Below are positions 20,142-52,491 of a DNA stretch of 56,386 bases, one piece after another. Under the pieces are notes generated by a model that ran no database searches, was not told where the DNA came from, and saw only the letters and a program-made list of their open reading frames with translations. The DNA comes from a virus. The stretch is taken from positions 1 through 56,386 of the IMG/VR virus record IMGVR_UViG_3300017917_001175; one strand, written 5' to 3'. Position numbers and translations under genes: made by a program. How positions within the stretch are numbered: the first letter of the stretch is position 1; each line of letters starts with the position of its first letter.

Positions 20142-20148
20142 AAATAAA

Positions 20149-20194: not shown

Positions 20195-20205
20195 GAGATT
20201 TGACT

Positions 20206-21156
20206 TTATGCTATACCGGTTGTACTTGCGCTCGGTTGCGGAGTTGAAACGTTATCACCAGTTGCTCTATAAGTTCTAACGTTGCTTACTAGTGTACCGT
20301 CAACCATTTCGTCAATACCAAATCCTGGATCAGGCAATGAAGGAGGAGCTGCCGAATCGTCCCACCAGTGAATCTTAAAGTCTGCTACATAGCCAAATGG
20401 TGCGGCTGATCTACGTGCATAGATAAAATATTTGTTAGCAGAGTATGCACCTGCTGGAGCATCTTTTTCAAATATCAATTCATAGCTGGTTCCAATTTCG
20501 TACCAACCGTTAGTGCCAATGTAATCAGCAGTACCAGTACAAGTTACACCAGTGTAGTTAAAAGCAATAGTGCCCATACTACTGAGCATTGTTGTCCAAG
20601 TAACATTCTTTAATCCTGCAGATCCGCCTGAGCGAGCAGAACTAAACTCTATTTGACCGCCTGCGTTGAAAAAGTATCGAGCCGCATCGTCTGAAACAAA
20701 ATTAACTGTAACTGTTTGTTCAATTCTACCGTTCCATGTAGAAGTTCTAACCTGCTGTGTAACTAAGTCTGCTCTTGTGGCTTGGTTAGCTGGAGGAGGT
20801 GCTGTTAAACGTGCAGACTCTGCATCATTAGCCATTGCTAGATAAGCCGCTCTCCAATCTTCTCTAACTTGTTTTGCGGCTGTAGCAATTGGAAGGTCTG
20901 AGCCAGCAACGTAACCAGCTTCGCCCGGAGCTTTTGAACCAATATCAACACCAGTTTGGTGCTGTCTAGCTCTAATAATATCGCTACGTAGATTATTCCA
21001 TTGGGCCGCAGTAATTTTAGAAAACTGACCTACTTGGTTACTTGAAAGACTTTGTCCATAACCAGATGTTCCAGACCCAGATCCCATAACCAAAGCAATT
21101 TTACTTTGTATTACGTTATAATCATTAGCAATAATTAATGTATTTTGACCAGCCAT
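20206..21156 (-). CDS. Virion structural protein, unknown function
   Basis: The protein has 316 residues. The N-terminal half has a Gly/Ser-rich stretch (MGSGSGTSGYGQSL), then helices with NNLRSDIIRARQHQ. The C-terminal half is beta-rich (QTVTVNFVSDDAARYFFNAG, then GTSYELIFEKDAPAG) with an Asp-Pro-rich end. This fits a tail or fibre-associated protein. I recognise the pattern ANDYNVIQSKIALV from marine T4-like virion proteins. Read from a late-type promoter (21183-21190), with AAGGACA before the ATG. It is the last gene of the structural block. Confidence 0.65.
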   Translation of the reverse strand: MAGQNTLIIANDYNVIQSKIALVMGSGSGTSGYGQSLSSNQVGQFSKITAAQWNNLRSDIIRARQHQTGVDIGSKAPGEAGYVAGSDLPIATAAKQVREDWRAAYLAMANDAESARLTAPPPANQATRADLVTQQVRTSTWNGRIEQTVTVNFVSDDAARYFFNAGGQIEFSSARSGGSAGLKNVTWTTMLSSMGTIAFNYTGVTCTGTADYIGTNGWYEIGTSYELIFEKDAPAGAYSANKYFIYARRSAAPFGYVADFKIHWWDDSAAPPSLPDPGFGIDEMVDGTLVSNVRTYRATGDNVSTPQPSASTTGIA

Positions 21157-22701: not shown

Positions 22702-22723
22702 TTTACTCTATTCCTTGTCCTTG

Positions 22724-22731
22724 TATTTATG
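22724..22731 (-). promoter_or_regulatory. T4-late-like promoter CATAAATA
   Basis: On the minus strand CATAAATA (7 of 8 match to the T4 late box) lies in the 56-base gap before the 502-residue fibre gene, 22 bases upstream of its ATG. Consistent with a gp55-type late promoter. Confidence 0.5.
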
Positions 22732-22757
22732 CTATTTTGGATTGTTATTACAGTGGG

Positions 22758-27259: not shown

Positions 27260-29386
27260 TTACCAAGTTCCTGCGGCATGCGGTGTTCTTTTCCAAATAT
27301 CTGCTACTCCATCAGTGTAAGTAGTTGTGCAATAGTAAATGTAACTAGCATCTATAGCTACCATACCAGCAGTATCCCCTGCAGATCCTTTACTTGTTGC
27401 AGGAGTTACGCTAGTTGTTGGGAACTGCATACGCCCTTGTAAATTAAATTTCCATTCGTAATCAGGATCGTATCCAATACTATCGCTATTGCCCACAGCG
27501 ATAATTACTGAAGAGTTATGATTCCCCCCTATTTCTACAGACTTAGTATAGAATCTACCAACGTAAACTCTGCCATCTTGTGACTGTCCAGGATCGGCAA
27601 ATCCTTCTGGACCGCGTCCAAACCGGTATCCACCTGAAATATAAACGTCACCGCCGTCACTACTTAATGCATCGTTGTTTGCAGGGCCGCCACTAACATA
27701 AACATTTCCGGACGGCGTGCTACCGCTCGACTTGCCGCCTGTTATAGTAACGTTGCCACCTTCGCCGCCAAAGGAAGTTTTCTTATTTTCTCCACCTAGG
27801 ATGAATACTGATCCTTGATCATTTACAGAACTATTGTAGAGATCAGAACCACGAATATAAATGTTTCCGCCGGCGCCGAGTTGAGAACTTCCAGCTTGGA
27901 GTGTTACATTTCCGCCGTCTGTACCGCCTAGTTCGTCTTTTCCTCGAATAGTTATTGAACTTGGCCCAGATATTAATCCGGTGCTAACAATTAGTGCATC
28001 AGTTGCTGGATCGGTGCTCAGGGTAACAGTAATGACATCTAACTGCGCTTCGTACCCATCTATAAAAGATTGTGCCGATGCTATCTGTGACTGATACCCA
28101 GCTATCTGACCTAGTAATATACTACGTTGTCCTAGTAACACACCTATTTGAGACACTGCTTGATTATAAAGCGGATTTGAAGGGCCTTGGCTAACAATTC
28201 CTTCCCAGTAAAGTAATTGATTGTCAATTGACGTAACTTGTTGTTGTAACGGATCTATTAATGCCTGACGACCTGCAATATAAGATTGTAACCCTGTAAT
28301 GCTTGATTGAATTGCTGTTGGGTCGCCAGTTAGTGTTAAATTGCCCGGGAATGTTGTAGACTTATCAGGATTAAATACCCACTGTGTTGGAGTACCGCTA
28401 TTTGCATCTAGTGAAAATACAACACCGCTTGCACTAACCCATAGAGCATTTCTAGTAACTGAACTGTCAAAAGGATCATCTGCTGGTCCGTTGTTAGCCC
28501 AGTTTAATTCTGGACCTCCATTACTGCCATTGTTAAACCCTGCAATGATCATAGGATATGAGCCAGGTGTTGAATTAATCCACGACGTGCCAAGCACTGT
28601 CTCAGGAAGTGTTAACACACCTGCGTGATTAAAGTTCCAGAACTTTATATCATTACCGTCACTGACAACAAGACTTGCTCCAGAATCTCCAACAAGGACT
28701 TGAGTATTTTTAGTCGTAGACGGATTCTCAATATCAAGAGCCCAACGAAGTATTAAATTATTATTAGGAACAGTTCCGTTGTCCCCTGCTAGAAGAGTAA
28801 AATCACCACTGGATACTAATGTAGCATTTAAACCAGACCCCACTAAATCAATCATCGAGTCGCCGTTAACTAAAGCACTGGCAACACCTAACGATACACT
28901 AACGACTCCATCTTGATTTACAGTTAAGCCTGTTCCAATTTTAATTCCACCAAGGACGTTTGAACTAGCAGTTGGAAGAGTGTAAGGCGATGCAACAGCA
29001 GATAGTGTACCAAAATTGTCAATAGTTAAGTTGTCGCCAACTCGGATGCCGCCAAGGGTATTATTTGTAGCAGTTGGCAGTGTGTAAACCTGTGCGGTAA
29101 CTACACCATCTTGGTCTATGTTTAAACCAGTTCCAAGTTTAATTACACCAAACTCTGTTGGGGAAGCAATCTTAGAAGATACAGTTACCTGCCCGGAAGG
29201 GTTGCTTATTGCAATTCCGCGGCCTGGTAATAGTGTATTGACAATAGAAACAGGAGTGTTGCCATCGCTAGTTAATGCGTTATACAATTCTGTAAAGTTT
29301 GCATTAATCTTTTGCGCTCCTGTTCTTAATGGATCTCCAGTTCCGTCGTTTATTGTAGATCCTAAATTAATTAACTGCTTTGCCAT
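27260..29386 (-). CDS. Tail fibre-like protein with coiled coil and Gly-rich repeats (708 residues)
   Basis: The N-terminal segment NDGTGDPLRTGAQKINANFT is typical of cyanophage and marine myovirus fibres. Residues about 75-170 hold three LGGI-type repeats (TLPTATNNTLGGIRVGDNLT style). Residues about 355-450 form a helical, probably coiled-coil block (PLQQQVTSIDNQLLYWEG, LLGQRSILLGQIAGYQSQ) that resembles one in the giant protein. Residues about 480-640 are Gly-rich beta repeats (GGNVTLQAG, GGNIYIRG, GGNVTITGG, GGDVYISGG), as in a beta-helix or a polyglycine adhesin. The Gly-rich part is the best candidate for receptor binding. Confidence 0.78.
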   Translation of the reverse strand: MAKQLINLGSTINDGTGDPLRTGAQKINANFTELYNALTSDGNTPVSIVNTLLPGRGIAISNPSGQVTVSSKIASPTEFGVIKLGTGLNIDQDGVVTAQVYTLPTATNNTLGGIRVGDNLTIDNFGTLSAVASPYTLPTASSNVLGGIKIGTGLTVNQDGVVSVSLGVASALVNGDSMIDLVGSGLNATLVSSGDFTLLAGDNGTVPNNNLILRWALDIENPSTTKNTQVLVGDSGASLVVSDGNDIKFWNFNHAGVLTLPETVLGTSWINSTPGSYPMIIAGFNNGSNGGPELNWANNGPADDPFDSSVTRNALWVSASGVVFSLDANSGTPTQWVFNPDKSTTFPGNLTLTGDPTAIQSSITGLQSYIAGRQALIDPLQQQVTSIDNQLLYWEGIVSQGPSNPLYNQAVSQIGVLLGQRSILLGQIAGYQSQIASAQSFIDGYEAQLDVITVTLSTDPATDALIVSTGLISGPSSITIRGKDELGGTDGGNVTLQAGSSQLGAGGNIYIRGSDLYNSSVNDQGSVFILGGENKKTSFGGEGGNVTITGGKSSGSTPSGNVYVSGGPANNDALSSDGGDVYISGGYRFGRGPEGFADPGQSQDGRVYVGRFYTKSVEIGGNHNSSVIIAVGNSDSIGYDPDYEWKFNLQGRMQFPTTSVTPATSKGSAGDTAGMVAIDASYIYYCTTTYTDGVADIWKRTPHAAGTW

Positions 29387-29391
29387 ATTTC

Positions 29392-32300
29392 TTATCCTTG
29401 GTCGAATGTGCTTCCTGTAGAATCAAAGCTATTTCCTGTACTGTCAAAAGTACCCGGGGCTTGTCCTATATTTTCATATTTACCTATACTTGTGTACCAT
29501 ACACCCGGTGCGGCTTTTAAGAAGTTAGCTATCTTACTGTTATCATCTAAAATGTTAACATCACCGTCCCATGCTACGCCCGTTCTCTTAACAACTGTGA
29601 CTCGAGTTCCAAACTCTAATCTGTTTGTTAATCGTAACTGTTTGTTTACTGCATCAACAGCAAACTCTGCATCCATTTGAACATCGCCTTCTGGACTATC
29701 TGGGTAGTTGTTTACATGCACCATGTAAGGCTTCTTCTTCAAACGTATATTGCCGATGAAGAATACCCAGTTAGCCTTATCGTTCTCAAATGACGTTGTG
29801 CTTGTATGATCAGCAACGCATCGATAAGTGTAACTACCAATCTCAACAATATCATCAACTTTGTAGTCGACATTTGATTCCCAACTTAGAGTTGTGTAAC
29901 CGCCAACAAATACTTCGATATCGTTGGCTTGTCTATAACCTGCTGGTATAGTTGATGTGAATCCTTGTGTGTAGGTCCAGTTTGTTGCTGGATCAACTCC
30001 AGTAGCTGGGTCCATTGGAATAAATGTTAGGGGAACAATATTAGTACCATCAGATTTAATTTGCTCAACTATCGTAGTCTCAGTGTAAGGAATAGTCTCC
30101 GAAGCTCCGATATCTTGAACAAAGCTACCTGCTGGGTGTCTTTCTGGAACACCTGTACCTAATGTACCTCTTCTTAACTGTCCTAAAATGTTTCCATTCT
30201 TAGTAAAGTACTCAATACGTTCACCTCTAATTTCAATAATACCAGGCTTGTTGTTTTGAATGCTTGGTAGGTCAAAATTAGTTGCGTCTTCGACTTCAAT
30301 AGTTGTGTCAGTATAATTAAGAGCTTTTACTAGCTTAGTTTGTTTATTAGCATTTAATCTCTTATAGTGTACTCTATTGAGCATGTCTTTAAATTGCATG
30401 TAAGACACACCTTGTCCTAGAGGTTTGCCGCCAAATGTTATAATACCAAACTCGTCGGCAGTTTCAGGATATGCAGACAACTTGATGCTAGATTTATCTT
30501 CATTTAATTTATAATCAACGCTAGGTGTTAATAACTTACCATTCTTTGTTACTAGCACATAGTTGTCATCAAGTACTGGTCTGTCAAGAACAATAACTCC
30601 TCCAGATATGCCTCTGTAAGTGTAATACTCAGGAGTATCGGGAGTTATTACCAAGTTAGACGATACGTTAACTGCTGTTCTTTGTACGTCAAGAATATCG
30701 TGTTTATAAGAGCTAATAACTTCAATTTGATCAGCAAGAGTGTATGCTCTTGAGAATTCAATCTTTGGAGTTGTTCCAGAAATATACGAGTATTCTGCAT
30801 CCTTTCTAACACTTACAACTAGTTCTTGATTTAGATATTTCTGGCGAATTGACTGTGTTATCTTAACAGTAACTCCGCTGATATCTATAGTATAATCAAT
30901 GCCAGTTCTTAACAAGTCACCGCCGGCATATACAAATACTTCATCACTTGATAAGCTGTAAGGTAAGAACTTTGCTGGATCAATATTGTAGTTTACTCGT
31001 GTTCCGGTAATCTTAAAGTAACTGTTGTTTGGTCCTCTTAGAATTTGCTGGCCAACACGAACAATCATATTAGATTCAGTTGGTAAACTATCTCCAACAA
31101 TGTACTCGAGGTCATATAAATTAGATCCGTTACCTTGGAAGCGTTCTGTTTTAGTTAGGGAATAACTTTGTTCAGTTCCGCTAACTATTACATAGTTAAT
31201 AATTGCTCCGTTTGATGGAGGAACACTAAAGTATAACCCAACTCTGTTAGGACTATCGTAACTTGAATCTGTTTTAAATATTCCCGGAGTGCCTGGTTCT
31301 GCAGGAAGACCGTTAACATATACAAGATAGTTAACTGGCTGTACCCATGGCGCTCTTGTTACAAATTCAGTTTGAACTCCGTCACCAACAAAGTAATCTA
31401 AATCAAGTACGCCAGAGCCGTTAAAGCCAAAGCTAAACACAGATACAACTTTGCCACTTGAAGGAGCTGTTAAGAACTTAATCAGTCTGTTAGGATAATC
31501 AACAACATAGTCAATGCCTAATGTAGAAATAATTGACTCGTTTGACAATTCTCCAGTGTTAGGATCTCGAACACCTTCTGTAGTTTTTACAATTACTGCT
31601 GTTGGTGTGTTTGGTTGTTGTGTGATTAAAAAGTCTGTGGTTACACCGTCTGCAACATAACTATCAACTTTAAGACTTGCACCGCCTGTGCTTAGTCTAT
31701 CATAGACCTTAATAGCAACTGCATCAACAACTTGCCCCGGAACAACTTCTTCTGTTGCTGGACTGCTTGTTGGAGTAACAAACCCATCGCCGTCAACAAG
31801 AATGTCATCTGCGGCTAAACCGGTTGCTGATGAATAAGCTAAATTGCCACCTGACAGTGCTGTGTCGTAGTCGTCTTCTTGTGGGCTAATAGAACCGTCA
31901 CTTGTGCTCTTACGCCATATAAACTGATCACCTGCATCTACTTGATAGGTATTTGGTATAGTAAATGTCTTGTAGGTAGGATCGATCTGACTGTCTGGTA
32001 TTCCGTTAGAGACCGGAGTTTGCATAATAGCTGTGTCATTTAAGACAGGAGGTAAACTATCTACAACTGCCTGAGCCGCTTGGACTTCAAGTTCTTTTGC
32101 GGCTTTGTCGGTTAAGTTGTCTGCAATTTCTTGATCTTTATCATCTAAGTCTTGTTCTTGCTGTGCAATCTCAGCTTGTTTATTTGGAATAGATGTATTT
32201 GTTAAGACATTGATTTGGCTTACTGTCGGTGCATATAAAGGATCGCTAGGTGTTAGACCAGCAAGAACAATGTTTAATGCGTTAAGTTCTGACTGAAAAT

Positions 32301-35300
32301 CAAATAGCTCATCATTTAATGTTTCTAATGTAGATTCAATGACTGCTTTTTCATCTAAAAGAACAGCGTACTGGCTTATAATAACTGCTAGCTCTGATTC
32401 CTTTGTATTTAAAGTTTGAACTGCAACTCCAGTTACATTATAGTTTTCGTCATCAAGCCTAATAGGATCAAAGTATGCAGTTATAGTTAAAGTGTTTCCA
32501 ACTGGGATCGCTTCATTTAAGAATACAGTACCGTTAGGATTAATCTGACAATCTGTTGGATCAACTAATACTCGACTAAATGTTGCGGTTGCACCAGCTT
32601 TAATTGCTTTGTAAACAATTTGATCTAATGTAATTTGATTTGTATTAGTGTTAATAGAAACAACTTTTGTGTTTAGTGCAAAGGTATTAACTGTTGTAAA
32701 AGTCATTGACCCACTTGCAGTTGTTACTGGTACTGCAGGGCCGCCTGGTGTGAGTCCAACAGTTATATTATTTCCAGAAATACTTCTTACGTAATATGTA
32801 CCTGCTTCTAATCCGCCAAAACTTGTACCTTTAATTCTTATTTGTTCGTCTATAACAAGTCCTTGGCTGCTAGACAATGTCACTAGGTTACCAGATTGAA
32901 TAGTATTTGTAACGGTTCCGTTTGGTTCTGTAATAGTAACAATATCTCCAACTGCTACACCTGTAACGTTTGTTAATGCAATTACATCACTTCCTAAAAC
33001 ATTAGGACTTGATGTACTATTAAAGGATTTAACTGTAGAAACAGTTACGACCGGAGGATAAACATTATTAATATTAAAATTGTAAATCTTTGTAAATCCA
33101 TCGCCGTTAAACGTTTCAACGTTTCTACTAATATGATAGACGTTCATTTTTGTTCCAGATTCTGGAACATATGGTATTACAAAAGAATGTGTATTGGCTG
33201 CTACGGTAACAATATAATCGTCAAATGTTCCGTCAAAACTATCCCATCTATCTGAATAGTATCCAACACTTCCCCATCCTGAACCAACATCAAATCCTAA
33301 TCCGTTGATGTTTACGCCACCGTAGTCAACACCTGTCATTAGTTGAGCTAGATCTTTTCCTAACTCTCCAGTAGCAGGATCATAATAATATTGAATCCTG
33401 TCGGCTGCATTTAGTAATGACCAGTCTTTAATATAGTTAACAACAATAGTTGAACCATTTGCTGGCGCAACATCAAAGGTTATAGTACCATAGTAGCTAG
33501 TGTATCCTTTGGTAGTTGTCTTAGCGATTGCAAGTTTATAATTTGCTCTAAGTGCTTCAACTCCATTTATAGTAACAGAAGACTTACCAATTTTAACATC
33601 AGGAGCCCATGTTAGTGGGAACTGTAATCTTGAACCAGTTCCTGTAAATGTTTGTGTTTCTTCAAGTCTGTTAATAAAATACTTTTGTGTAATTCTATCA
33701 AACTTAATCTTAACAGTGTTTGAACGAACTTTACCGTTACCTATAATAGCAATCGCCTTGCCTGGAGTTCCTCCATCAACTAGTCCGCCTTCAAGGACAA
33801 TTTGAGGAGCCGCTAAGTATCTTGAACCTTGAGAAATTACAATAATTCTAGCAACTCTGCCGTTAGTTATAAAAGCTCTGGCTACTGCGCCGGCGCCTGT
33901 ATCGCTAACAACTCGTACTACAGGTTCTGACTTATATCCAACACCGCCATCGGTGACTTCAATTGACAATACAGAATAACCAATGTTGTCATACCAATGC
34001 TTCCATGGATACTCTAAAATTTTATTATTGTCAGCTTGAATTAAACCATTTGAAACTGTTGTGTTAATAGGTAGAATCTTGTCATTCTCAAATACTGGCA
34101 TTAAATCAAAGTCAGTAGTTGATACTGGACTGTTGTCTAGTTTATCATAAACTGAAACATATTCTCTAACTTGTGTTCTATAAGGTTTAACTTCGTTAAT
34201 ATAATCTTCAAAGTTTGAAAGATTGTCATTATTGTAAGTAACTTTTTGCTTGAGGTTACCAACATTATGCGTTGCCTTAACAAAACTTGTTTTGAAAATC
34301 CAATCAACATAGTTTTGTTCACTAAAGACATAACGCACAGAACTAAAGAATAAATTTAGATAATCTTGTTTGAGAGAATCGATTAAGATATCTTGTTTAA
34401 GAGAGTTAAGAATAATTCGCAACTCTATCGATGCTGAATTATCAAATATACCAGCATCGTATAATGACGCATCAAAACCGTACTCACTGTTTGAGAAATT
34501 GTACAGATTGTCAGAGAATTGAATTGTTCCTTTCTCCCTTCCGACAACTTCATAGCTTTGAGTCCAGTCAACGCTTGAAGAATCTGCATATTTCCTCAAT
34601 AGTACCCATGTGCCTAAATTAGTTGTTCTAATCTTAACTAATTGTCCAACTTTTGATTCTAGTGAGTTTAGATCAACAAATGAGTTTACAGAATAATCAA
34701 TAGATGTGAATTCGTTGTAACCAGTTGCATACCAGTCTACATAACTCCAATACTTTCTTACATCGTAAGCCTGTGACTGTATTCTTGACCAAACTTGTGT
34801 AGTTGGTTCATAGGCATATATGCTCCAGTTTCCTTGAGCAACTGAATCACTATGGACTAAAACAGAATAATTTCTAACTGTCACTATAGTGTTTGCATCA
34901 TAACCGTAACCTGGATCAATTACTGTTGCACCAGTTATTTCACCTCTATTGTTAATTACGGCTCTAACTTTTGCACCAGTACCTGTACCAGTTATAGTAA
35001 AGTAAGGTGCTACTAGGTATCCGCTACCTCGTTGTACAATAGTTAGGTCAACAATTCTTCCATCAACAATAACTGGTGTAACTAAAGGTTTCTCGTATGT
35101 ACCAATGTTAGCAAATCTTAGTTCTTCATCAGTATCAACTGTAGAATCATAAAGACCTGTAATTATTGAAGGCTCTTGTTCAAACACATCGATATTTGAA
35201 ATATCTCTGTTTTCAACAATTAGTTCATTAATTAAGACTCTGTTAACTTGTTCTATGACTTGTTTTAGTGCCTCAAATCTATTAACAAACATTCCTTGAC

Positions 35301-38300
35301 GAGGTCTAGCTTCGATACCATATTTTAATTTTGGTGCTAGGGCAGGATCAGGAACTAAGCGACCTGCTGAGTCTTTACCGCATAAGCTATCAAACCATTT
35401 TTGTTCAATAAAGTCTGGAATGTCAGTTTGTGTATTGTTACTGATAATCTTCCACTGACTGTGAACTGACTTGTCAGTCTTAGAATTAATCCAATATTCG
35501 ATTGATAGTACAACATTCTTGTCTTCGAGTAATGGTTTTACGTTAACTAAACTAAAAGAATTAGATCCTGTTAATGCAAGGTATCTGTAACCGTATCCTC
35601 TTGGGTTTTCAATTAGATCAATTACGTCTTGAGCAGATATTGTCCTATTAGGATTGTTTGGAACAGTCCTCTTATTCTTAACCCAGTAGTAATATGTGTT
35701 TTTAAACGATTTGCTTATGTTATCATATTTTCTAACTAAACCGTAGACATTGTTACCGTATAACGATGTTCCACTTATTCCTTGTGCAATCCCTTCCTCA
35801 GTATCAGCTAATGCATTCCACTGATCAGGTAATAGTGAAGATTCAACCCATTCATAAACATCAACTGTTGCTCCTGGATACATTGTATTCCATGTACTGT
35901 TTCTGTAAACTAAGTCAGTATCGTGGCTATCAAAAAACTTAGTTGTTCTTAAGTCCCACCATAGTGTTCCAACTTGTGGTTTAGACCACGCCATACCCGG
36001 ATCAACATTTACTTGATCAGTACCAGATGAATACACTGCTGGATCGTAGAAAGTCTTATATTTTATTTCTTGGTCGGCAGGCCCTGGAATCTTACCTTGT
36101 GTTGGATCAACTACATCAAGATATGTTATTAACTTGTTTGTAACTTTATTGTATAAGAAAGCTCTCTTGACACTCTTAAGGTCAACACGGTTGCTTTCTT
36201 GATGTTTAATTGACCAGCTGGTTACACCAATACGCTTCTTATATTCGTGTACTCGGCCAGATCTAACTCCTTGATCGAGCGCATATGGAGCTCCAACTAA
36301 AATTTGATCGTTGCCAACTGCTAGGCCTGTACTATAACCAGTAGTTATATCTCCACCGTTAAGTAGGCTCTCACTGAAAATCCATTTTGTGCTGTAACGG
36401 TCATATATGTCAATTCTTCCGCTGTCTTCAGCTTTATCTAATAATTTTGTTAGATCATTATCAAATGTTGTACTACCGGCATCAAACAATGTTTGAATAA
36501 AGCTGTCTGATCCTTGACTATAGACAACGATTGTTTGGAAGTCATTCATGAACTCTACTTTAGTTCCAAATAGTTCAGCAGTTTCGGGGTCTTTGTTTAG
36601 TAGAGTTTGATAGAATTGATAGGAAGTTCCGTTGTACTGATATACATTTACGCTACCTTGGTCAATCTTTTCTCCGTCTGCGTAAATTGACGATATTGCA
36701 AGATATTCTCCTGCATCAGAAATTGCTAGACTGTATCCAAATTGAGGATCAGCACCGTCAATAGTTTGTGCTAGTGTATAAGATCCGTTGTTTGCTTGAG
36801 AGTAAACAAAAACTTTACCGTTAGTATCTAGCGCCGGTGCTGAAATTACTAACTTAGAATAATTAGCACTCATAACCATTGATTTACCAAACTGACTCTT
36901 AGCTACTACAGTTGGAGCCAATGTATTAGTTAAATCGTATCTCCAAGTTGTAACAATAAATTCTAAGATGCCCGATGGTTGACTGTCAGGCGCGGCACTT
37001 AACACAATAGAATTATTAGCAGAGTTTACTTGAGCAACATATTGATTACTACTAAAACCTTGACCTCTTACAAACATGCCTGGTTCAATTCCAGTAGTGC
37101 TTGATAGCACAATAGTAGTTCCAGAACTTCCTACTGGGTTGTAAGATGTTGATGCTCTAACAATAGTTTGATATGTTAGTCTGTAAACCTTGCCGGTATC
37201 GTTTGCGCTTCCCGGAACGCCAATAGCACCAACAAATAAAGTGTCTTTACCAAAAACTAGACTTTGACCAAAACGTTCTCCTAAGGCTGGCTCAGGGCTT
37301 AAAATTGTTTCGACTAATGAGAAAATATTACTTGAATCTTTTCTGTATATAGAAACCACACCTTGTTCGCCAACATCTTCAATTGGATCATATAAGTTAG
37401 AATTTATTCCAGTTGGATCAACCGGAATGTATGGTGTTTCTTCCCAGTAAACAACAGCGTTTCCAGATACAGTAACACTGGTAATAGGACCGACTGAGCT
37501 AACTCCGGATATAGACGCAACTTTGATTATTAAGTTATTAGCAGGTGCTGTTCCGCCTAATGATGAACCAAGCACTCTAATTTCATCGCCAATTGCATAA
37601 CCAACACCGGCATTAATAACGGTAACTGTATAGTCAGAATTTTCAGCTAAAACATTAAATGTTGCTCCAGCACCGTTGCCAGAAATGTTAGTTCCAGATA
37701 CACCATTAAATGTAAGAGTAATAACAGCAGGATCTTTTGCACCAACATTTGATACACCAGGCCCTGAATTTAATTTAGCCTTGTAGTACTTAGAATTTTT
37801 TACAACAATATCATCTACTGAATAGTTAGTAGAGTTACTCCATGAATACTTATACTTGCTACATACTTTTGAAGCTCTAGGTGTGCCTGATGCTAACCAT
37901 TGTCCGTCTTCAGAGATTGCAATAACATCACCAGTAAATTCTTTAGGTGTAGGATTTGAATTTCCTTCGTCTTTAGAAATAAATGGTGCTGTAATTGTCT
38001 GACGTTGAATCCAAGGTTGGGCATAACCAGCCTTATCATAGATAATAATGTCACCAAAATTAGTAGACACAGCTGACAAGTTTCCTTGGCTGTTTAGAAG
38101 AATTCTTCTTCCGTAACCTAAGCCGTCTTTAGGTGCAGTGTTGATAACTTCGTCAATATGGTAAGCAGGATTATATTCCCAAGTTGCCCACTTTCCGCTT
38201 CCGTTATCGTCTGTCCATAATAATTCACCTTGATTTAACACCTCGGGGATTACAGTATCTGCAGAGTCAATTGATGGAGCTCTAGAAGTTACAAAGTAAG

Positions 38301-41300
38301 CAAGATTAATGTTTTCCTTATCTTTACTTGTAAAAGTATATTTTGAAACAGTTGTATCAACTACTATTGTTTTTAAATTAACACTTTTAACCTTGTAAAA
38401 TCCTTTGATAGCTTCAACATGATCAATACCTATAATCTGTCCAACTTCAACTGGAGAATTTTTAGATAAAGTTATTGTTAGTTCTTTATTAGCATACTCA
38501 ACATTTAAAACTTTAACTTTAAGATTAGAGAATCTATAGACATTCCATTCTCTACCTTCAAATCCAACCCATACATGATCACCGTCAAGGAAGTCTGAAA
38601 TATTTTTTATAAGAACATCGTCAAACTCTTTTAGTGTATATTTCACTTCGCTAGATCTTACATAACCTGGAGTTCTTAGATAAGGAATATAATTCTTAAC
38701 AACAGGCCATGGATTGCTATTGTAACCAATTGGCGTTACATAAATGTCATTTGGTGTTTTTCTAATGATAAAATCAGCTTTTGATGTATCAGCTTCTTTT
38801 ACTAGCTCAAACCCTTGAGGGTTGTTTTTAAACTCTGCTTCATCAAGAACAATTTCAATATTCTCAAAAGCCGCATTAGCACCGTACTGACCAACACGAA
38901 CTGCCCATTCTTCGTAGAACTTAATGCTTTCTTGCCCGTCTGCACTTAATACATCAAACAACTTGTTGAGAACATTTTGTGTGCCTTTCTCAACAATCAT
39001 ACCTTGGTAGAACTTAAATTCTGAAACATCATCTTGAATAATGTTACTTAGGTATTGTCGCTTTTGATAACCGATTAAATGCTGTGCAACTGCTTGTTGG
39101 TCAGCATCAAAGTTATCGCTGTCTAGACTGTAGAAATCTGTGAACTGGCTTGCTTTATAACTCCAGTTTGGTAACATTTGAGATGTTGGTTTTTGTTCTA
39201 AACGAACCCAATCAGTGTCAACAAACTTTTCAGTTCCGGCTAATGATGTTTTTGCTGTATAGTAGAATTGCTTATACTTTACAATATCACCTAACGCATA
39301 ATCATTCCAAGGTTCCCATTCTTGAATTTTTGCTTGATCAAATATAAATCCAGGAATGTTAAAATCGCCTTTCCAATCTGAACTTACATATCCAGAAACT
39401 TTAATTCTTTCTTGTCTATATCCGCTTTGTGGATTATAAATTGTATCATTAAACAATGTTGTGTTCTTTAAAACTACAACTTGTTCTTTCTGTACAAGAT
39501 AGAATGTTGCTCCGTAAATGGCATCGTCAACTGGAGTATAACTTACTTCGTTTTCTTCTCTATAGTTGTTAAGGAAGTTAGGCTGGATTGGTGTACCGTC
39601 AACTTTAAATATCTCATATCCGTTAAAAGGATTTCTGATATCGTCAACAACACACAAAGGTGTTGAGAAAGTTAATTTTGATGCCGATGGGCTTAAACTA
39701 ATAACAGCACTACCAACAGTACTTAGACCATCTAACTTAACAAAATCAGATTCTAAGAATGTTAATGAAGGCTCAGATGTTCTTAATGCGCGATAGTATT
39801 CGCCGTTATACCTGACAATAGCACCAACTGGTGTTTCAACATTTGGTAACCATTCTTCCCATTTATCTTGGCCTGAACTCCAGTTTTGAGTTGTCCAGAA
39901 CATAAACTCTTTAGCACTAGTTTCCCAGTTTGTAACAGCTTCTAAAGAAGTATTATACTCTTCAAAAATAAATCCTTGGTCTTTTAGCCACTCACCGTAA
40001 CCTAATAAAAAGTCAACAACATCTTGGACTGTTCTAAATTTAGTTCCGTATGGTACAGTAGTAACATCAGACTTATCCCATCCTTGTCTAATGTAAGCGT
40101 CTACCCCGCCAACTACTGGCAATGATGGAAGCAAAGTATAAAAATTAGGATCAAAGACTGATGTTGTAGTGTGTAATACTTTTGCTCTATAATAACGATT
40201 TGCGTAGAATACTACTTTGCCGGCGGCATATTGAGAACGCTCAGACCACTGAGAGAATGCTTCAGAAATTCCACCTACATTTATTAGATTGCCAGTTCTA
40301 GTATAAGAATAAGATTTAAAGTAAGGTTGTGTTCTACTATAACCTTTAACAACAAATCCGTCATTTACTTTTGTTACAATTACACCACTGTATGTAATTT
40401 TCTTTACTGGACTAGAACTGTTTAGAATAATTTCGTAGTCTTCTTGTGGAACAAATACGCTTCCAGATGTTAGAGGTGTCTTGCTATCAAGAAGTAATTT
40501 AAATTTTTCTTTACTTGTAAAGCCACCAATTCTATGGCTTATTACTGCGCTGATATTCTTTAAATCATAATCGTATTCTGAGTAAGAACGTTGATTATCG
40601 CTTTGAATATAGTCAACGATGTAGTTGATAATACCAGAAGTTTTTGTATTCTTAGTACTAGAATAGATGCTAGGCAATACAACATCTTTTGGTTTAATTC
40701 TTAGACCTGTATCTTTATAAACCAGCTGTCCGGCTTTGTTTCGAATAATTCTTGACCTATCAAGTAATGTGCCAAATGTCTTTGCTGGCTGTAGCAACAT
40801 TGACGCTATTAGTACACTAAATGGATAGTAACTACTTCTGCGCCATGCATTTTCTACAGGGCTTACATCACCAAAGATGTAGTCATTAGCAATAGAACTG
40901 GTCACTACACCTGATGCTAGTCCAGATGATAGAGGACTAATAACATTTCCACTTTCATCAACTGGGATTGCTTTCTTTATATAACTGCGAATATATTTTT
41001 CTTTTACAACTGGAGGTAGTCCTGGCTCCCTAACAATACCGTCGGCAATGTCATTCCACATTACTAAATTATCTCGAGTATATGGAGCAGGGCCATACAC
41101 TTCTGTCCACCAGGTTGGTTCTTCTGTAAATCCTAACATTTCCCAAGGACATAGATTTGGTCTGTCAGTTCCTAGCATCCATTTGTAAACACCTCTCCAA
41201 TAACCAGGAAGAGGACTCTTACCGTCCGGTGTTGAAAACTCTCTGTAATTAAATGTTAGAGGATTTTCGTTGTCATAACCAATTGGTGTAGTAAAATCTT

Positions 41301-44300
41301 TATCGACAATGTTAGACCAGCTATAAAAACTTATAGATAGTACTTCATTAAACTCTTTTAAACTATAAGGTGTTGAATTGTTATAAGAAGGAACAATATC
41401 ATCAATATCAAATATTGAAGGATTGTAACTTACCTTAATGTTATTGTAAATTCGTTTTTCTAATTCTAAAATAAGATCGTCACGATAATCACCATAAGCA
41501 AGTGTTAGACTACCATCGTGACCTTGTATCATTGTTTTTGGATTTACTAATGTAGTATCAACAAAGACTTTAGGTTCATACTTTGGCCAGATACCTAGCT
41601 TAGTTGGCGTCGGCGGAACAAAGCAACCATTTGTATTTTCAAATTCATAGATTGTAATAGTATCTCCGTTTTGTATTTCTGCAGATACTACTACGAATCC
41701 TTGATCGTTAAATGTATAATCTTTTTTGTAAATTAGCTGTTCACCGTTCAAGTAAACCAACGCTGCCTTATTTGACAATTCGTCAAGATTAAATGTTCCG
41801 GTTAATGGATATGTTTTTGTTCTAAAATCTATTACTGTTAAGTCAGAACGGATGCCACCTGTACACGGTACCATATCACTAAAATAATATGGGAAGGTCT
41901 TAGGTTTATCTTTTGCAATTTCTTGCATGATAAGATTAACCTGTTTAACTGGATCTGCTTCAACACCTAAGTTTTCTGCAACAGTAATAAACGTTCTCTT
42001 AAACTTGTTATAGTCATCTCTTGCTTTTTCGATTGCTCTAACAATATTATTATTCTCAGATGTAATATGATAGAGTGACAGACTGAGAGGACCGCTGTGC
42101 TGTACGAATCTAGTACCGTATTCTGTAGTTTTACCGATATCTCTTAAATTACTTGATCCTGGGAAGGTTCCGGTAAAGGAAGTTAAATTTTCAACAATCG
42201 ACCCAACATGGTCAATTACTTCGCCTAGAGTGAAATCTCCAATTTCAGCATTTAATGGATTGTTTTGTAGATTCAACGGAATCTCATAGAACCCATTATC
42301 GTTAATAGGTTGCTTTGCAAATGCTTTTATAGTTAAAATGTCAGATAACGAAATGTCTTCATTTAATACAACTGTTTTATAATAACCAGTAGTAACTACA
42401 TTCCATTTTGAAGTTGGTAACCAAATTCCGTTAACATAAACTTTGACAATTAGATCGTTTAAGTCGTTAACATTTTCAAAAATATCAATGTCAAAATTGT
42501 TTACTTTTCCAGAATCTTTGTAAATTCTAATTGCGGCTTGAATTGTTGTTGCTTCTGAAATTTTCCATCCGTCAACATATTCTTTTTCACCGTTAGGTAA
42601 TGTTTTTTCAAGATACCCTACATTTACATTTCCAGTCACAATCGAAGAAGTGCTCTTATACTGGAATGTATCTGTTGCTAGATCAAAATTAAAAACAATA
42701 TCACCAACGTTGCTTATATTTTTGTAAGACAATGGGAACCCTAGAACAGTATCAGAAACACCTGTTCCGACTTTGTACGAGAATAATTTAGTTCCCGCAA
42801 ATGTAGATCCATCGTATGTGTCTTTGTTACCGTAGCTAATGTTATTTTCATCAACAACATCAAACAACGGAGGTTGATTTAGTTTAACTTTTTGTTGAGC
42901 CGCTAGCCAAGATGCTCCGTTATACCAATACATCAAGCCTTGATTTTTAATACCTTGACGAACTAATACAACTTGATCAGTTATTGGCTCTCCTTGATCA
43001 ACTAAATGAATTTGTCTAATACCGTCAAGTGTTAAAAACTCAACTTTATAAATTCTATTTTTAACTCTAACATCAGTGTCAGCTGTAAAGAGAACTCGTT
43101 GTCCTTGAGCTAAGTCAATTCCGTCAACGTTATATCCTAGCTGTCCTTCGATGTTTGACATTACATCTACTGTGTAGTCGTCAATTACATCAACATCAGC
43201 TATTGCAGATGTACCAAAATTAAATAAACGAATATTTGCATCAAATTCAATAATTGGTCTTACAGCTCTCGATGTTTGATCAATGTCTGCAATCTTACCG
43301 TTAAACTTTGCACTTTCTTCAATGACATCTTTATGGAACCAACGATTATAGCGGCTCCAAGGGTTATGATCGTCTGCGGCTCTATTAATAACAATATAGT
43401 CTTTTGAACCTGCAAATGAAGTTGCATCACTCCATGGCATTGTATCGAATGGAGTGTTATCAAACAATATAGCTTCGGATGTAGTGTAAGGACTGATTAA
43501 CTGTAAAATAGATTCATTAACTAATCTAATACCAGTACCAACACCTTCAACATAGTATTGCCCAACTGTGTAAGACTCCGGAATAACGTTTCCAACAAAG
43601 GAAACTTTCATACCGTTGCTTAACTTTGTTCCGTTTGGAAGACTGTACTCTTTCTTACCAATAATGTCTTTATCAATATCAAGGAAAGTGTTATCATCAA
43701 TAGAAGCTACTTGGAGAACTCCGCCTAGATCTACATCTGCTTCACTGACATAATATAATACGTCTGGAGAACTATAAGGAACAGTAAATTCTATTACACC
43801 AGATTCAATACCGTTATTAATTAATCCAAGTGTTGCATATCGATCAAATGTTCCTAGTGTCCTTTTTGTCTTAATAGAAAAAGGATTTCCAGGACTGTTA
43901 ACAGTAAATCTGTAAGTCTGTCCTCTGTATAGTTTAATTGTTGGGTTCTGTGTTAGACTGTCTGGTGAGAAAACATAAACATTATTATCTGCTTCTGCTT
44001 GAACTTCAACTGAGTATTCGCTAACAATATTTTGTTGTTGTCCAGAGATTCTAATAACATCAGGACCGTATGGTAGCCAATAGTAGTTTTGGAAGTTAAC
44101 AAACTTATCCCAGTTAATGTGCGGATCCCATGAGTAAAATTCTTGGGCATTTAATCTTGAATGATTTTGTGTGTTAGATCCAAAAACACTAAGTTGGTTA
44201 ATGTAGTCAATATAATCTTTAAAGAAGGTAGTATTACCTAGATCATCTTTAACTATGAAACTAGGATCTAGCTGATAATTTTGTCTAGTACTGTCGGCTG

Positions 44301-44496
44301 CTTGTATAAAAATGTCGTCGCCGGTTGTCGATTTAGAATTTTTTCTTCCTATGTAACCGTTGATCTTTTTTACAGTGCCTGGCTGTATTAGCTGGTCGAT
44401 AGTAGCTTGTAAGAATTTCTTATTAGAATCAGTTCTAAAATATCTTGGTAGTAGTTCTGAACTAAGTGATTTTCTTTTGCCTTTTTTATCAGCCAT
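29392..44496 (-). CDS. Giant virion protein in the gp7-gp10 position (5034 residues)
   Basis: This single uninterrupted reading frame lies between gp6 and the fibres, where T4 has genes 7 to 10. Parts seen: a cupredoxin-like segment (about 175-255; IKLYRGQTYRFTV); at least five short modules of the pattern W-x5-Y-x2-G/D-D-x-V-x(5-6)-Y-x-A/C near 1420, 1550, 1725, 2215 and 4870, like carbohydrate-binding modules; six or more FG-GAP-like propeller repeats (about 2120-2760; ERFGQSLVFG, QFGYSLAIS, QILVGAPYAL); GxGY repeats (about 3150-3180 and 3510-3570); and a coiled coil (about 4030-4150). It probably includes the wedge scaffold missing elsewhere (gp7), but no gp7 match was shown. Confidence 0.75.
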   Translation of the reverse strand: MADKKGKRKSLSSELLPRYFRTDSNKKFLQATIDQLIQPGTVKKINGYIGRKNSKSTTGDDIFIQAADSTRQNYQLDPSFIVKDDLGNTTFFKDYIDYINQLSVFGSNTQNHSRLNAQEFYSWDPHINWDKFVNFQNYYWLPYGPDVIRISGQQQNIVSEYSVEVQAEADNNVYVFSPDSLTQNPTIKLYRGQTYRFTVNSPGNPFSIKTKRTLGTFDRYATLGLINNGIESGVIEFTVPYSSPDVLYYVSEADVDLGGVLQVASIDDNTFLDIDKDIIGKKEYSLPNGTKLSNGMKVSFVGNVIPESYTVGQYYVEGVGTGIRLVNESILQLISPYTTSEAILFDNTPFDTMPWSDATSFAGSKDYIVINRAADDHNPWSRYNRWFHKDVIEESAKFNGKIADIDQTSRAVRPIIEFDANIRLFNFGTSAIADVDVIDDYTVDVMSNIEGQLGYNVDGIDLAQGQRVLFTADTDVRVKNRIYKVEFLTLDGIRQIHLVDQGEPITDQVVLVRQGIKNQGLMYWYNGASWLAAQQKVKLNQPPLFDVVDENNISYGNKDTYDGSTFAGTKLFSYKVGTGVSDTVLGFPLSYKNISNVGDIVFNFDLATDTFQYKSTSSIVTGNVNVGYLEKTLPNGEKEYVDGWKISEATTIQAAIRIYKDSGKVNNFDIDIFENVNDLNDLIVKVYVNGIWLPTSKWNVVTTGYYKTVVLNEDISLSDILTIKAFAKQPINDNGFYEIPLNLQNNPLNAEIGDFTLGEVIDHVGSIVENLTSFTGTFPGSSNLRDIGKTTEYGTRFVQHSGPLSLSLYHITSENNNIVRAIEKARDDYNKFKRTFITVAENLGVEADPVKQVNLIMQEIAKDKPKTFPYYFSDMVPCTGGIRSDLTVIDFRTKTYPLTGTFNLDELSNKAALVYLNGEQLIYKKDYTFNDQGFVVVSAEIQNGDTITIYEFENTNGCFVPPTPTKLGIWPKYEPKVFVDTTLVNPKTMIQGHDGSLTLAYGDYRDDLILELEKRIYNNIKVSYNPSIFDIDDIVPSYNNSTPYSLKEFNEVLSISFYSWSNIVDKDFTTPIGYDNENPLTFNYREFSTPDGKSPLPGYWRGVYKWMLGTDRPNLCPWEMLGFTEEPTWWTEVYGPAPYTRDNLVMWNDIADGIVREPGLPPVVKEKYIRSYIKKAIPVDESGNVISPLSSGLASGVVTSSIANDYIFGDVSPVENAWRRSSYYPFSVLIASMLLQPAKTFGTLLDRSRIIRNKAGQLVYKDTGLRIKPKDVVLPSIYSSTKNTKTSGIINYIVDYIQSDNQRSYSEYDYDLKNISAVISHRIGGFTSKEKFKLLLDSKTPLTSGSVFVPQEDYEIILNSSSPVKKITYSGVIVTKVNDGFVVKGYSRTQPYFKSYSYTRTGNLINVGGISEAFSQWSERSQYAAGKVVFYANRYYRAKVLHTTTSVFDPNFYTLLPSLPVVGGVDAYIRQGWDKSDVTTVPYGTKFRTVQDVVDFLLGYGEWLKDQGFIFEEYNTSLEAVTNWETSAKEFMFWTTQNWSSGQDKWEEWLPNVETPVGAIVRYNGEYYRALRTSEPSLTFLESDFVKLDGLSTVGSAVISLSPSASKLTFSTPLCVVDDIRNPFNGYEIFKVDGTPIQPNFLNNYREENEVSYTPVDDAIYGATFYLVQKEQVVVLKNTTLFNDTIYNPQSGYRQERIKVSGYVSSDWKGDFNIPGFIFDQAKIQEWEPWNDYALGDIVKYKQFYYTAKTSLAGTEKFVDTDWVRLEQKPTSQMLPNWSYKASQFTDFYSLDSDNFDADQQAVAQHLIGYQKRQYLSNIIQDDVSEFKFYQGMIVEKGTQNVLNKLFDVLSADGQESIKFYEEWAVRVGQYGANAAFENIEIVLDEAEFKNNPQGFELVKEADTSKADFIIRKTPNDIYVTPIGYNSNPWPVVKNYIPYLRTPGYVRSSEVKYTLKEFDDVLIKNISDFLDGDHVWVGFEGREWNVYRFSNLKVKVLNVEYANKELTITLSKNSPVEVGQIIGIDHVEAIKGFYKVKSVNLKTIVVDTTVSKYTFTSKDKENINLAYFVTSRAPSIDSADTVIPEVLNQGELLWTDDNGSGKWATWEYNPAYHIDEVINTAPKDGLGYGRRILLNSQGNLSAVSTNFGDIIIYDKAGYAQPWIQRQTITAPFISKDEGNSNPTPKEFTGDVIAISEDGQWLASGTPRASKVCSKYKYSWSNSTNYSVDDIVVKNSKYYKAKLNSGPGVSNVGAKDPAVITLTFNGVSGTNISGNGAGATFNVLAENSDYTVTVINAGVGYAIGDEIRVLGSSLGGTAPANNLIIKVASISGVSSVGPITSVTVSGNAVVYWEETPYIPVDPTGINSNLYDPIEDVGEQGVVSIYRKDSSNIFSLVETILSPEPALGERFGQSLVFGKDTLFVGAIGVPGSANDTGKVYRLTYQTIVRASTSYNPVGSSGTTIVLSSTTGIEPGMFVRGQGFSSNQYVAQVNSANNSIVLSAAPDSQPSGILEFIVTTWRYDLTNTLAPTVVAKSQFGKSMVMSANYSKLVISAPALDTNGKVFVYSQANNGSYTLAQTIDGADPQFGYSLAISDAGEYLAISSIYADGEKIDQGSVNVYQYNGTSYQFYQTLLNKDPETAELFGTKVEFMNDFQTIVVYSQGSDSFIQTLFDAGSTTFDNDLTKLLDKAEDSGRIDIYDRYSTKWIFSESLLNGGDITTGYSTGLAVGNDQILVGAPYALDQGVRSGRVHEYKKRIGVTSWSIKHQESNRVDLKSVKRAFLYNKVTNKLITYLDVVDPTQGKIPGPADQEIKYKTFYDPAVYSSGTDQVNVDPGMAWSKPQVGTLWWDLRTTKFFDSHDTDLVYRNSTWNTMYPGATVDVYEWVESSLLPDQWNALADTEEGIAQGISGTSLYGNNVYGLVRKYDNISKSFKNTYYYWVKNKRTVPNNPNRTISAQDVIDLIENPRGYGYRYLALTGSNSFSLVNVKPLLEDKNVVLSIEYWINSKTDKSVHSQWKIISNNTQTDIPDFIEQKWFDSLCGKDSAGRLVPDPALAPKLKYGIEARPRQGMFVNRFEALKQVIEQVNRVLINELIVENRDISNIDVFEQEPSIITGLYDSTVDTDEELRFANIGTYEKPLVTPVIVDGRIVDLTIVQRGSGYLVAPYFTITGTGTGAKVRAVINNRGEITGATVIDPGYGYDANTIVTVRNYSVLVHSDSVAQGNWSIYAYEPTTQVWSRIQSQAYDVRKYWSYVDWYATGYNEFTSIDYSVNSFVDLNSLESKVGQLVKIRTTNLGTWVLLRKYADSSSVDWTQSYEVVGREKGTIQFSDNLYNFSNSEYGFDASLYDAGIFDNSASIELRIILNSLKQDILIDSLKQDYLNLFFSSVRYVFSEQNYVDWIFKTSFVKATHNVGNLKQKVTYNNDNLSNFEDYINEVKPYRTQVREYVSVYDKLDNSPVSTTDFDLMPVFENDKILPINTTVSNGLIQADNNKILEYPWKHWYDNIGYSVLSIEVTDGGVGYKSEPVVRVVSDTGAGAVARAFITNGRVARIIVISQGSRYLAAPQIVLEGGLVDGGTPGKAIAIIGNGKVRSNTVKIKFDRITQKYFINRLEETQTFTGTGSRLQFPLTWAPDVKIGKSSVTINGVEALRANYKLAIAKTTTKGYTSYYGTITFDVAPANGSTIVVNYIKDWSLLNAADRIQYYYDPATGELGKDLAQLMTGVDYGGVNINGLGFDVGSGWGSVGYYSDRWDSFDGTFDDYIVTVAANTHSFVIPYVPESGTKMNVYHISRNVETFNGDGFTKIYNFNINNVYPPVVTVSTVKSFNSTSSPNVLGSDVIALTNVTGVAVGDIVTITEPNGTVTNTIQSGNLVTLSSSQGLVIDEQIRIKGTSFGGLEAGTYYVRSISGNNITVGLTPGGPAVPVTTASGSMTFTTVNTFALNTKVVSINTNTNQITLDQIVYKAIKAGATATFSRVLVDPTDCQINPNGTVFLNEAIPVGNTLTITAYFDPIRLDDENYNVTGVAVQTLNTKESELAVIISQYAVLLDEKAVIESTLETLNDELFDFQSELNALNIVLAGLTPSDPLYAPTVSQINVLTNTSIPNKQAEIAQQEQDLDDKDQEIADNLTDKAAKELEVQAAQAVVDSLPPVLNDTAIMQTPVSNGIPDSQIDPTYKTFTIPNTYQVDAGDQFIWRKSTSDGSISPQEDDYDTALSGGNLAYSSATGLAADDILVDGDGFVTPTSSPATEEVVPGQVVDAVAIKVYDRLSTGGASLKVDSYVADGVTTDFLITQQPNTPTAVIVKTTEGVRDPNTGELSNESIISTLGIDYVVDYPNRLIKFLTAPSSGKVVSVFSFGFNGSGVLDLDYFVGDGVQTEFVTRAPWVQPVNYLVYVNGLPAEPGTPGIFKTDSSYDSPNRVGLYFSVPPSNGAIINYVIVSGTEQSYSLTKTERFQGNGSNLYDLEYIVGDSLPTESNMIVRVGQQILRGPNNSYFKITGTRVNYNIDPAKFLPYSLSSDEVFVYAGGDLLRTGIDYTIDISGVTVKITQSIRQKYLNQELVVSVRKDAEYSYISGTTPKIEFSRAYTLADQIEVISSYKHDILDVQRTAVNVSSNLVITPDTPEYYTYRGISGGVIVLDRPVLDDNYVLVTKNGKLLTPSVDYKLNEDKSSIKLSAYPETADEFGIITFGGKPLGQGVSYMQFKDMLNRVHYKRLNANKQTKLVKALNYTDTTIEVEDATNFDLPSIQNNKPGIIEIRGERIEYFTKNGNILGQLRRGTLGTGVPERHPAGSFVQDIGASETIPYTETTIVEQIKSDGTNIVPLTFIPMDPATGVDPATNWTYTQGFTSTIPAGYRQANDIEVFVGGYTTLSWESNVDYKVDDIVEIGSYTYRCVADHTSTTSFENDKANWVFFIGNIRLKKKPYMVHVNNYPDSPEGDVQMDAEFAVDAVNKQLRLTNRLEFGTRVTVVKRTGVAWDGDVNILDDNSKIANFLKAAPGVWYTSIGKYENIGQAPGTFDSTGNSFDSTGSTFDQG

Positions 44497-48036: not shown

Positions 48037-48483
48037 TTATCCTAGCAATAGCAATCCGTTATTTTGATCAAAGCGGATCTGCATACTTTGGCTGATATTA
48101 TAAGGCAAATAAGTTAGCATACACTCTAACTGTAATCCACTTTCATATTGAGTTACAGTCACTTGGCTTGCAGAAACTCTTGGGTCATAGTTTATAATTT
48201 CGTTAACATTATTCAATATAGCTTGTTTAAGATCTTCAGTTAATGGCTCAAATAATAGATCCCAAATAATGGTGCCAAACTCTGGATTCATTAAACGTTC
48301 GCCTTGACGTGTATAAAAATGATTCAGTATATCCTGCTGTATCAATTGGAAATCATATAAGGCAAAATTTTCTGTATTTGCACTTACTGTACTAAATCCT
48401 TTGTACATTTTAGGAACAATTTTATCCTGTCTTAGAGCAGGATTTAAAACTATTTTATCGTATAAGTTTGAGTTGGATGCCAT
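48037..48483 (-). CDS. 25: Baseplate wedge protein gp25
   Basis: The protein has 148 residues, close to the T4 length of 132. The conserved segment FYTRQGERLMNPEFGTIIWD, then LLFEPLTEDLKQAIL, is the gp25/GpW signature shared by contractile injection systems (for example TssE in type VI secretion). A Pro-Arg pair (DPRVSASQ) near residue 100 fits the conserved core motif. It initiates sheath assembly on the baseplate. It lies between the gp5-like and gp6 genes. Confidence 0.92.
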   Translation of the reverse strand: MASNSNLYDKIVLNPALRQDKIVPKMYKGFSTVSANTENFALYDFQLIQQDILNHFYTRQGERLMNPEFGTIIWDLLFEPLTEDLKQAILNNVNEIINYDPRVSASQVTVTQYESGLQLECMLTYLPYNISQSMQIRFDQNNGLLLLG

Positions 48484-52191: not shown

Positions 52192-52491
52192 TTAAATTCC
52201 TAACACTGTTTTTAAACTACTTTCTTTTGGAATGTAGATTTTCTTTCCTGGTACAAAGTCTAAAATAGGATCTTGAATTACATCTAAGTTTCTTTGTGTA
52301 AACACCCACCAAAGAGAAGGTTCGCCGTACAAGTCATAGGCTAGTAAATCTGGTCGGTATGCGTACTGCGATTCAATCGTGTATAAAAAATCGTCAGGTT
52401 CAGCACTAACTGGTCGAATGTTAAGGATACCTAAGTAATCCTGTTCAATTTCTGTTGTGTGCCAAGGACTAGTATTTGTATAAGCTGCCAT
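52192..52491 (-). CDS. 53: Baseplate wedge protein gp53-like (LysM-like)
   Basis: The protein has 99 residues, shorter than T4 gp53 (196). It contains the segment YRPDLLAYDLYGEPSLWWVF, then TQRNLDVIQDP and VPGKKIYIP, which match the LysM-like end of gp53 and of related baseplate proteins. gp53 holds neighbouring wedges together in the baseplate. It lies directly before the hub-like gene, as in related phages. Confidence 0.75.
   Translation of the reverse strand: MAAYTNTSPWHTTEIEQDYLGILNIRPVSAEPDDFLYTIESQYAYRPDLLAYDLYGEPSLWWVFTQRNLDVIQDPILDFVPGKKIYIPKESSLKTVLGI

Follow-up and report, generated by a model that had tools for sequence, protein, structure and literature searches.

Baseplate gene cluster and position of the giant gene

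The stretch of DNA analysed here, referred to as the window, is the 56,386-base IMG/VR virus record IMGVR_UViG_3300017917_001175. Read downstream, the same strand encodes a gp53-like protein, a virion protein, a gp5-like protein, gp25, gp6, a giant protein and a gp9/10-like protein (Table 1), followed by a 202-aa protein, a collar fibre and further fibre-like genes. The order gp53, gp5-like, gp25, gp6 and giant matches that in phages CBB, phAPEC6, PA5oct, Atu_ph07 and Phosso, in all five of which the giant gene lies directly after gp6.

A preliminary description of the sequence had reported a single uninterrupted gene of 5,034 residues within the wedge cluster, and this was confirmed. The probability of 5,034 open codons arising by chance at 37.7% G+C is ~10^-151, and the start of the gene overlaps the gp6 gene by 8 bp. 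Fusion of separate genes during assembly was considered and ruled out, because complete single-ORF relatives of similar length (4,441–4,866 aa) are found on independent contigs (L027, L081 and L082/L083). The gene had also been assigned to the place of T4 genes 7 to 10. This holds for genes 7 and 8, which the giant replaces in gene order, but gene 10 has not been absorbed, since a separate gene with a T4_gp9_10_N domain comes next and provides the counterpart of gene 9/10.

Homology between the giant and known wedge proteins was assessed with profile and single-sequence searches. Comparison of 14 giant segments with T4 gp53 and gp5–gp12 by hhalign revealed no homology (probability ≤4.7% for T4 gp7), a PDB profile search matched no wedge protein, and PDB single-sequence searches with all three thirds of the giant returned nothing meaningful. 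Weak matches to a picornavirus capsid, Spike and asparaginase were dismissed as chance. Because sequence profiles connect the giant to neither T4 gp7 nor any other T4 wedge protein, the correct label at the level of sequence is "gp7-position" and not gp7. From its position, the giant would be expected to take part in a heterotrimer of the (gp6)2-gp7 type.

Downstream, three adjoining fibre-like proteins (21193-26590, minus strand) match the same PHROGs (15511, 8309 and 14394) at their N-termini, which suggests that they may share an attachment domain and differ in their distal parts. Past the fibre-like genes, none of seven consecutive genes (15969-21156, minus strand) matches a PHROG, and Pfam yields no more than one weak, sub-threshold match.

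Table 1 Features of the baseplate gene cluster and segments of the giant protein (res, residues of the giant).
Feature	Position	Strand	Basis and remarks
gp53-like wedge subunit	52192..52491	-	phrog_7145 2.7e-26; same place as CBB gp53
gp5-like hub/lysozyme	48485-49981	-	upstream of gp25 gene
gp25 wedge subunit	48037..48483	-	phrog_261, phrog_43
gp6 wedge subunit, 1,166 aa	44489..47989	-	phrog_10646 4.5e-303, phrog_219
Giant gp7-position wedge protein, 5,034 aa	29392..44496	-	single ORF; phrog_10938 2.7e-220
Scaffold N-terminus, res 1-149	44050..44496	-	helical; common to all giant relatives; identity 0.70
Cupredoxin-like domain, res 150-270	43687..44049	-	Foldseek; S-MbCM6 gp10; phrog_677 C-terminus; copper ligands replaced
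Scaffold, res 271-1409	40270..43686	-	profile matches to named jumbo phages; identity 0.63
W/Y module 1 (CBM5/12-like), res 1410-1465	40102..40269	-	Pfam CBM_5_12 26.5 bits; PDB 1ed7 0.0048
W/Y module 2, res 1541-1593	39718..39876	-	clean insertion; CBM1 profile 7.8e-07
W/Y module 3, res 1721-1769	39190..39336	-	clean insertion; CBM1 profile 4e-07; AlphaFold pLDDT ~84
Scaffold block A, res 1770-1900	38797..39189	-	most conserved; identity 0.78
Seven-bladed FG-GAP propeller in slot, res 2100-2790	36127..38199	-	Pfam, AlphaFold, Foldseek (PDB, BFVD)
W/Y module 4, nested in blade 2, res 2214-2260	37717..37857	-	CBM1 profile 0.0032
GxGY-like stretch, nested in blade 2, res 2261-2355	37432..37716	-	in ~20% of relatives; matches Synechococcus phages only
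Putative GMxVxG module, nested in blade 3, res 2448-2512	36961..37155	-	sequence and AlphaFold long hairpin
Scaffold block B, res 2791-3139	35080..36126	-	named-phage profile matches, E 8e-66 to 3e-35
GxGY repeat 1, res 3140-3207	34876..35079	-	sequence and profile comparison
Scaffold, res 3208-3507	33976..34875	-	named-phage profile matches; identity 0.61
GxGY repeat 2, res 3508-3600	33697..33975	-	sequence and profile comparison
Hypervariable stretch with coiled-coil-like part, res 3796-4150	32047..33111	-	occupancy 0.13-0.43 over most
Two putative beta-sandwich-like repeats with GDG motif, res 4271-4450	31147..31686	-	sequence; weak mutual profile similarity
W/Y module 5, res 4866-4916	29749..29901	-	Pfam CBM_5_12 20.5 bits, below cut-off; CBM1 profile 0.00026
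gp9/10-like fibre connector	27260..29386	-	Pfam T4_gp9_10_N 29.3 bits (cut-off 25); phrog_677
Collar fibre	24446-26590	-	Pfam Collar 6e-17

A family of giant proteins beside gp6

All three thirds of the giant match the phrog_10938 profile (2.7e-220, 4e-97 and 1.3e-15), which settles its membership of this family of giant proteins adjoining gp6 in T4-related jumbo phages. By tblastn, relatives sharing ~24–32% identity were detected in Atu_ph07, Phosso, PA5oct and its kin, SCTP-2, CBB, the 121Q/PBECO4 group, RaK2 and others, and at least 557 stretches in IMG/VR code for sequences related to its first 1,200 residues. Scans with single sequences from PA5oct and Phosso found nothing, whereas an alignment-based scan did find relatives. 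An NCBIfam search with the giant gave no match, and a search for host genomes carrying a relative found none. The gene preceding the giant in Salicola phage SCTP-2 encodes 3,096 residues (L092:4612-13902) and is possibly an enlarged gp6.

Several of these relatives are known virion proteins. By mass spectrometry, CBB_236 was detected in virions with 21 peptides and 7.72% coverage (PMC5259590), as was the 381.88-kDa phAPEC6 gp245 with 17 peptides (PMC7247149), and PA5oct EST35_0128 is recorded as a virion protein with the GenBank note "ESI-MS/MS". Since cultured jumbo phages have such virion proteins at this place, neither the size nor the virion location of the giant is surprising or new.

Encoding beside gp6 might still be incidental, the giant being a whisker, collar or tail decoration. 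The undetectable gp7 homology is compatible with such a non-wedge component, as is the PHROGs category of phrog_10938 ("head and packaging: virion structural protein"). Against this, gp6 adjoins the giant in every annotated relative inspected. Furthermore, a contractile wedge, in T4 and other contractile tails, needs a gp7-type component, and no other candidate was recognised between gp6 and the gp9/10-like gene. We consider a non-wedge location very improbable. Position and the virion proteomics of relatives together support a wedge role well, and we infer the same role for the window protein itself.

Modules inserted into a conserved scaffold

The anatomy of the protein was resolved from an alignment of 80 giants and profile searches of the named phages. 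The shared scaffold comprises residues 1-149, 271-1900 (minus the W/Y modules), 2791-3110 and 3230-3500, the remainder consisting of modules and less-shared stretches. For residues 1-149, profile matches in Phosso, Atu_ph07, PA5oct, SCTP-2, phAPEC6 and CBB have E-values from 4e-37 to 2e-18. In most segments, identity to the window protein is 0.60–0.78 for scaffold blocks versus 0.44–0.56 for modules (propeller 0.44; W/Y modules 0.49, 0.51 and 0.56; cupredoxin-like domain 0.55; GxGY repeats 0.51–0.52), and conservation of the propeller is lower than that of either flank in 63 of 63 relatives. At the sequence level, the scaffold is conserved and the modules, which interrupt it as clean insertions, are more variable. 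Faster divergence alone does not prove exposure, because residues 1901-2099 and 4271-4700, which lie outside the shared scaffold, are likewise less conserved; relaxed constraint also fits. The putative coiled coil (~4030-4150), recognised by its sequence make-up, belongs to a stretch found in ~20% of relatives.

The first module, residues 150-270, had been described as cupredoxin-like. The fold was borne out by Foldseek matches to multicopper oxidases (CueO) and copper nitrite reductases (NirK), with E-values of 2e-4, and by a match to a homologous domain at the C-terminus of cyanophage S-MbCM6 gp10 (8.7e-13). However, the type-1 copper ligands His-Cys-His-Met are replaced by N, S, D and L in most of 78 relatives, and the domain has probably lost copper binding. 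It is found in 85 of 89 members of the propeller-bearing clade (see below) versus none of 24 others. The cyanophage gp10 (L120:21104-22333) ends in a cupredoxin-like domain that retains H, C, H and M at the copper positions, and is a candidate copper-binding baseplate protein.

Five short W/Y modules, mutually similar in profile comparisons, were identified and, in agreement with the preliminary description, resemble carbohydrate-binding units. Only module 1 exceeds the Pfam CBM_5_12 cut-off, and marginally (26.5 versus 26.2 bits); a profile search also retrieved the chitin-binding domain of chitinase A1 (PDB 1ed7; 0.0048). The modules thus likely belong to the CBM5/12 fold family on sequence grounds, with putative ligand binding. 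In 71 of 80 aligned rows, the "GW" tryptophan of 1ed7 (W687-equivalent) aligns with a phenylalanine in module 1. Because of this substitution and the replaced copper ligands, the textbook ligands, chitin and copper, cannot simply be assumed for the giant. None of the six named phages has module 2 or 3 in the otherwise collinear alignment A3; module 1 is shared by Phosso, Atu_ph07, PA5oct and SCTP-2 but missing from CBB and phAPEC6, and SCTP-2 has additional W/Y modules elsewhere. Inside the propeller clade, modules 1-3 are near-universal and conserved.

The GxGY repeats of the preliminary description were located at residues 3140-3207 and 3508-3600. Such repeats are present in many virion proteins, including cyanophage gp7, gp8 and a 7,022-aa wedge protein. 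The further claim that T4 baseplate proteins lack modules of these kinds is correct for T4 itself but does not extend to cyanophages, given these GxGY repeats and the cupredoxin domain of gp10. The 7,022-residue protein of S-MbCM6 (L120:1-21069) is annotated as gp8, a label that seems doubtful given the separate gp7, gp8 and gp10.

An FG-GAP-type propeller had been proposed at residues 2120-2760, and one was located at ~2100-2790. Pfam FG-GAP_2 (PF14312) matches with 4.2e-10 and 40.1 bits (cut-off 23). An AlphaFold model of residues 1695-2800, built from 48 sequences, has pLDDT ~90 over most of 2095-2790, and its leading Foldseek PDB matches are mostly propeller or WD40 proteins, with E-values down to 5e-12. 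Foldseek against BFVD retrieved uncultured-phage YHYH proteins (41–47% identity), giant-virus FG-GAP proteins and proteins of cyanophage S-TIM5 and Atu_ph07. The region is accordingly modelled as an FG-GAP propeller fold, with seven blades as read from strands and repeats. A pattern search found no DxDxDG-type calcium loops within the blades. The insert in blade 2 (residues 2214-2355) is mostly missing in relatives in the 80-giant alignment, and loop divergence is not concentrated on one face of the propeller, giving no pointer to a binding face. Absence of a propeller and of CBM-like modules would have spoken against the preliminary description; both are present, and the description was not refuted on this point.

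The propeller occupies a slot between scaffold blocks A (1770-1900) and B (2791-3110), which co-occur in 143 ORFs. CBB, phAPEC6 and several uncultured relatives have a slot of 236–284 aa, whereas it spans ~650–1,350 aa (651–1,346) in nearly all propeller bearers and up to 1,537 aa in two. In the relative L177:9566-13513, a YHYH domain (Pfam PF14240, 4.7e-36) accompanies an FG-GAP propeller in the slot, and relative L163 has a weak CBM_X2 match.

The history of this slot was traced on a FastTree phylogeny of the preceding 850 residues (125 rows, midpoint root). Presence or absence of the propeller requires one change on the tree, on a branch with support of 100 leading to 90 propeller rows and 7 unclear ones. 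The unclear rows are not propeller-free, as most of those inside the clade carry Pfam FG-GAP_2 matches, and the single change also rejects frequent swapping of the propeller between lineages. None of 10 slots tested outside the clade contained a propeller. When 50,697 phage records were searched by tblastn, the window propeller matched only through its nested GxGY part and a second propeller query matched only FG-GAP-like parts of other genes (S-TIM5 and Phosso have such matches in other genes), and a propeller at this site in cultured phages was accordingly rejected. Judged from these sequences, the propeller appears to have arisen once at this site and, within the collections searched, is known only from uncultured viruses; gain is the likelier direction under the midpoint root.

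A large domain of this kind could have been fused to the wedge as a primary receptor-binding protein whose main role lies in host choice. Its size, low conservation (0.44) and the extra domains in its loops in some relatives (YHYH in L177) are in keeping with this. However, it is present throughout one large clade and does not swap between close relatives, and the window has its own collar fibre and further fibre-like genes. We regard this role as improbable.

Proposed role and comparison with known systems

The giant is probably a wedge scaffold at the gp7 position that carries exchangeable modules for adhesion, outward exposure and binding being the expected properties of those modules. In a T4-superfamily, jumbo-type phage, gp6, gp25, gp53 and the scaffold would jointly make up each of the six wedges of the baseplate. 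Surface modules (the copper-less cupredoxin, the CBM5/12-like modules, GxGY repeats and the propeller in the A-B slot) would be inserted at fixed scaffold sites and most likely project from the baseplate rim. Many weak contacts of these modules with host-surface glycans or proteins could then keep the particle at the host surface until the fibres bind irreversibly.

The main alternative is that the modules are structural, bracing a larger baseplate or docking fibres and other virion proteins with no host contact. Propellers are common protein-protein platforms. The loss of copper and chitin-type ligand residues, the near-universal conservation of W/Y modules 1-3 within the clade, the same cupredoxin domain in cyanophage gp10, a protein of the fibre-connector type, and the occurrence of GxGY repeats in many virion proteins are all consistent with it. 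On the other hand, the modules outpace the scaffold in divergence, while docking sites within assemblies usually diverge more slowly, and modules are missing from the functional relatives CBB and phAPEC6. A purely structural function is therefore possible, but we hold it to be unlikely.

If the modules are adhesive, a stronger version can be considered. Host recognition by myophages is usually credited to fibres and spikes. In a large clade of uncultured T4-superfamily phages, one ancestral propeller insertion, carried in six copies per virion alongside the CBM-like modules and the copper-free cupredoxin, could instead have turned the obligatory wedge protein into a multivalent adhesin that makes the first host contact in place of the fibres; we consider this unlikely. 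If, in a widespread clade of uncultured phages, the wedge does bear a propeller and glycan-binding-type modules, adsorption may start at the baseplate, and predicting hosts solely from fibre genes would overlook part of the interaction. A conserved scaffold with defined slots also offers clean boundaries for expressing single modules, and the assignment allows some of the largest genes still unannotated in freshwater and marine viral data to be named and placed. As far as a limited literature search goes, we found no description of the propeller clade, the slot or the copper-free cupredoxin.

Among known proteins, the closest in position and scaffold are the other phrog_10938 giants (CBB_236, phAPEC6 gp245, PA5oct EST35_0128, Atu_ph07 AUZ94962, Phosso 294 and SCTP-2 gp140), which lie at the same place after gp6 and share the scaffold of the window protein at residues ~1-149, 271-1900, 2791-3110 and 3230-3500. 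In contrast to it, they are shorter (3,323–4,555 residues) and lack the propeller and W/Y modules 2 and 3, and their slot measures 236–550 aa or, in Atu_ph07 and Phosso, ~1,560 aa including GxGY repeats. T4 gp7 resembles the giant in its place after gp6 and as the presumed wedge partner of gp6, but has 1,032 aa, no profile similarity and no such modules. The 7,022-aa cyanophage giant S-MbCM6_080 (phrog_701) also lies directly after gp6 and has ~13 GxGY stretches; however, no scaffold similarity was found outside these, and its own gp7, gp8 and gp10 genes follow.

Individual modules have counterparts outside the family. Integrin-alpha-type FG-GAP propellers (PF14312) have the repeat sequence and fold of the giant's propeller, whose blades differ in having no DxDxDG loop and which is inserted in a phage wedge protein. 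The W/Y modules have the W..x..Y..G..V.Y...Y pattern of CBM5/12 chitin-binding modules such as the chitinase A1 domain, with phenylalanine in module 1 where that domain has tryptophan. The nearest precedent for a wedge protein with carbohydrate-binding folds is baseplate wedge 3 of the unrelated phage Vp4, Gp119, which binds Bacillus cereus cells (PMC11406892). Gp119 is a Herelleviridae protein of 831 aa with CBM16-like and Xyn10B-like folds, and its cell binding was established experimentally, whereas for the giant we infer it.
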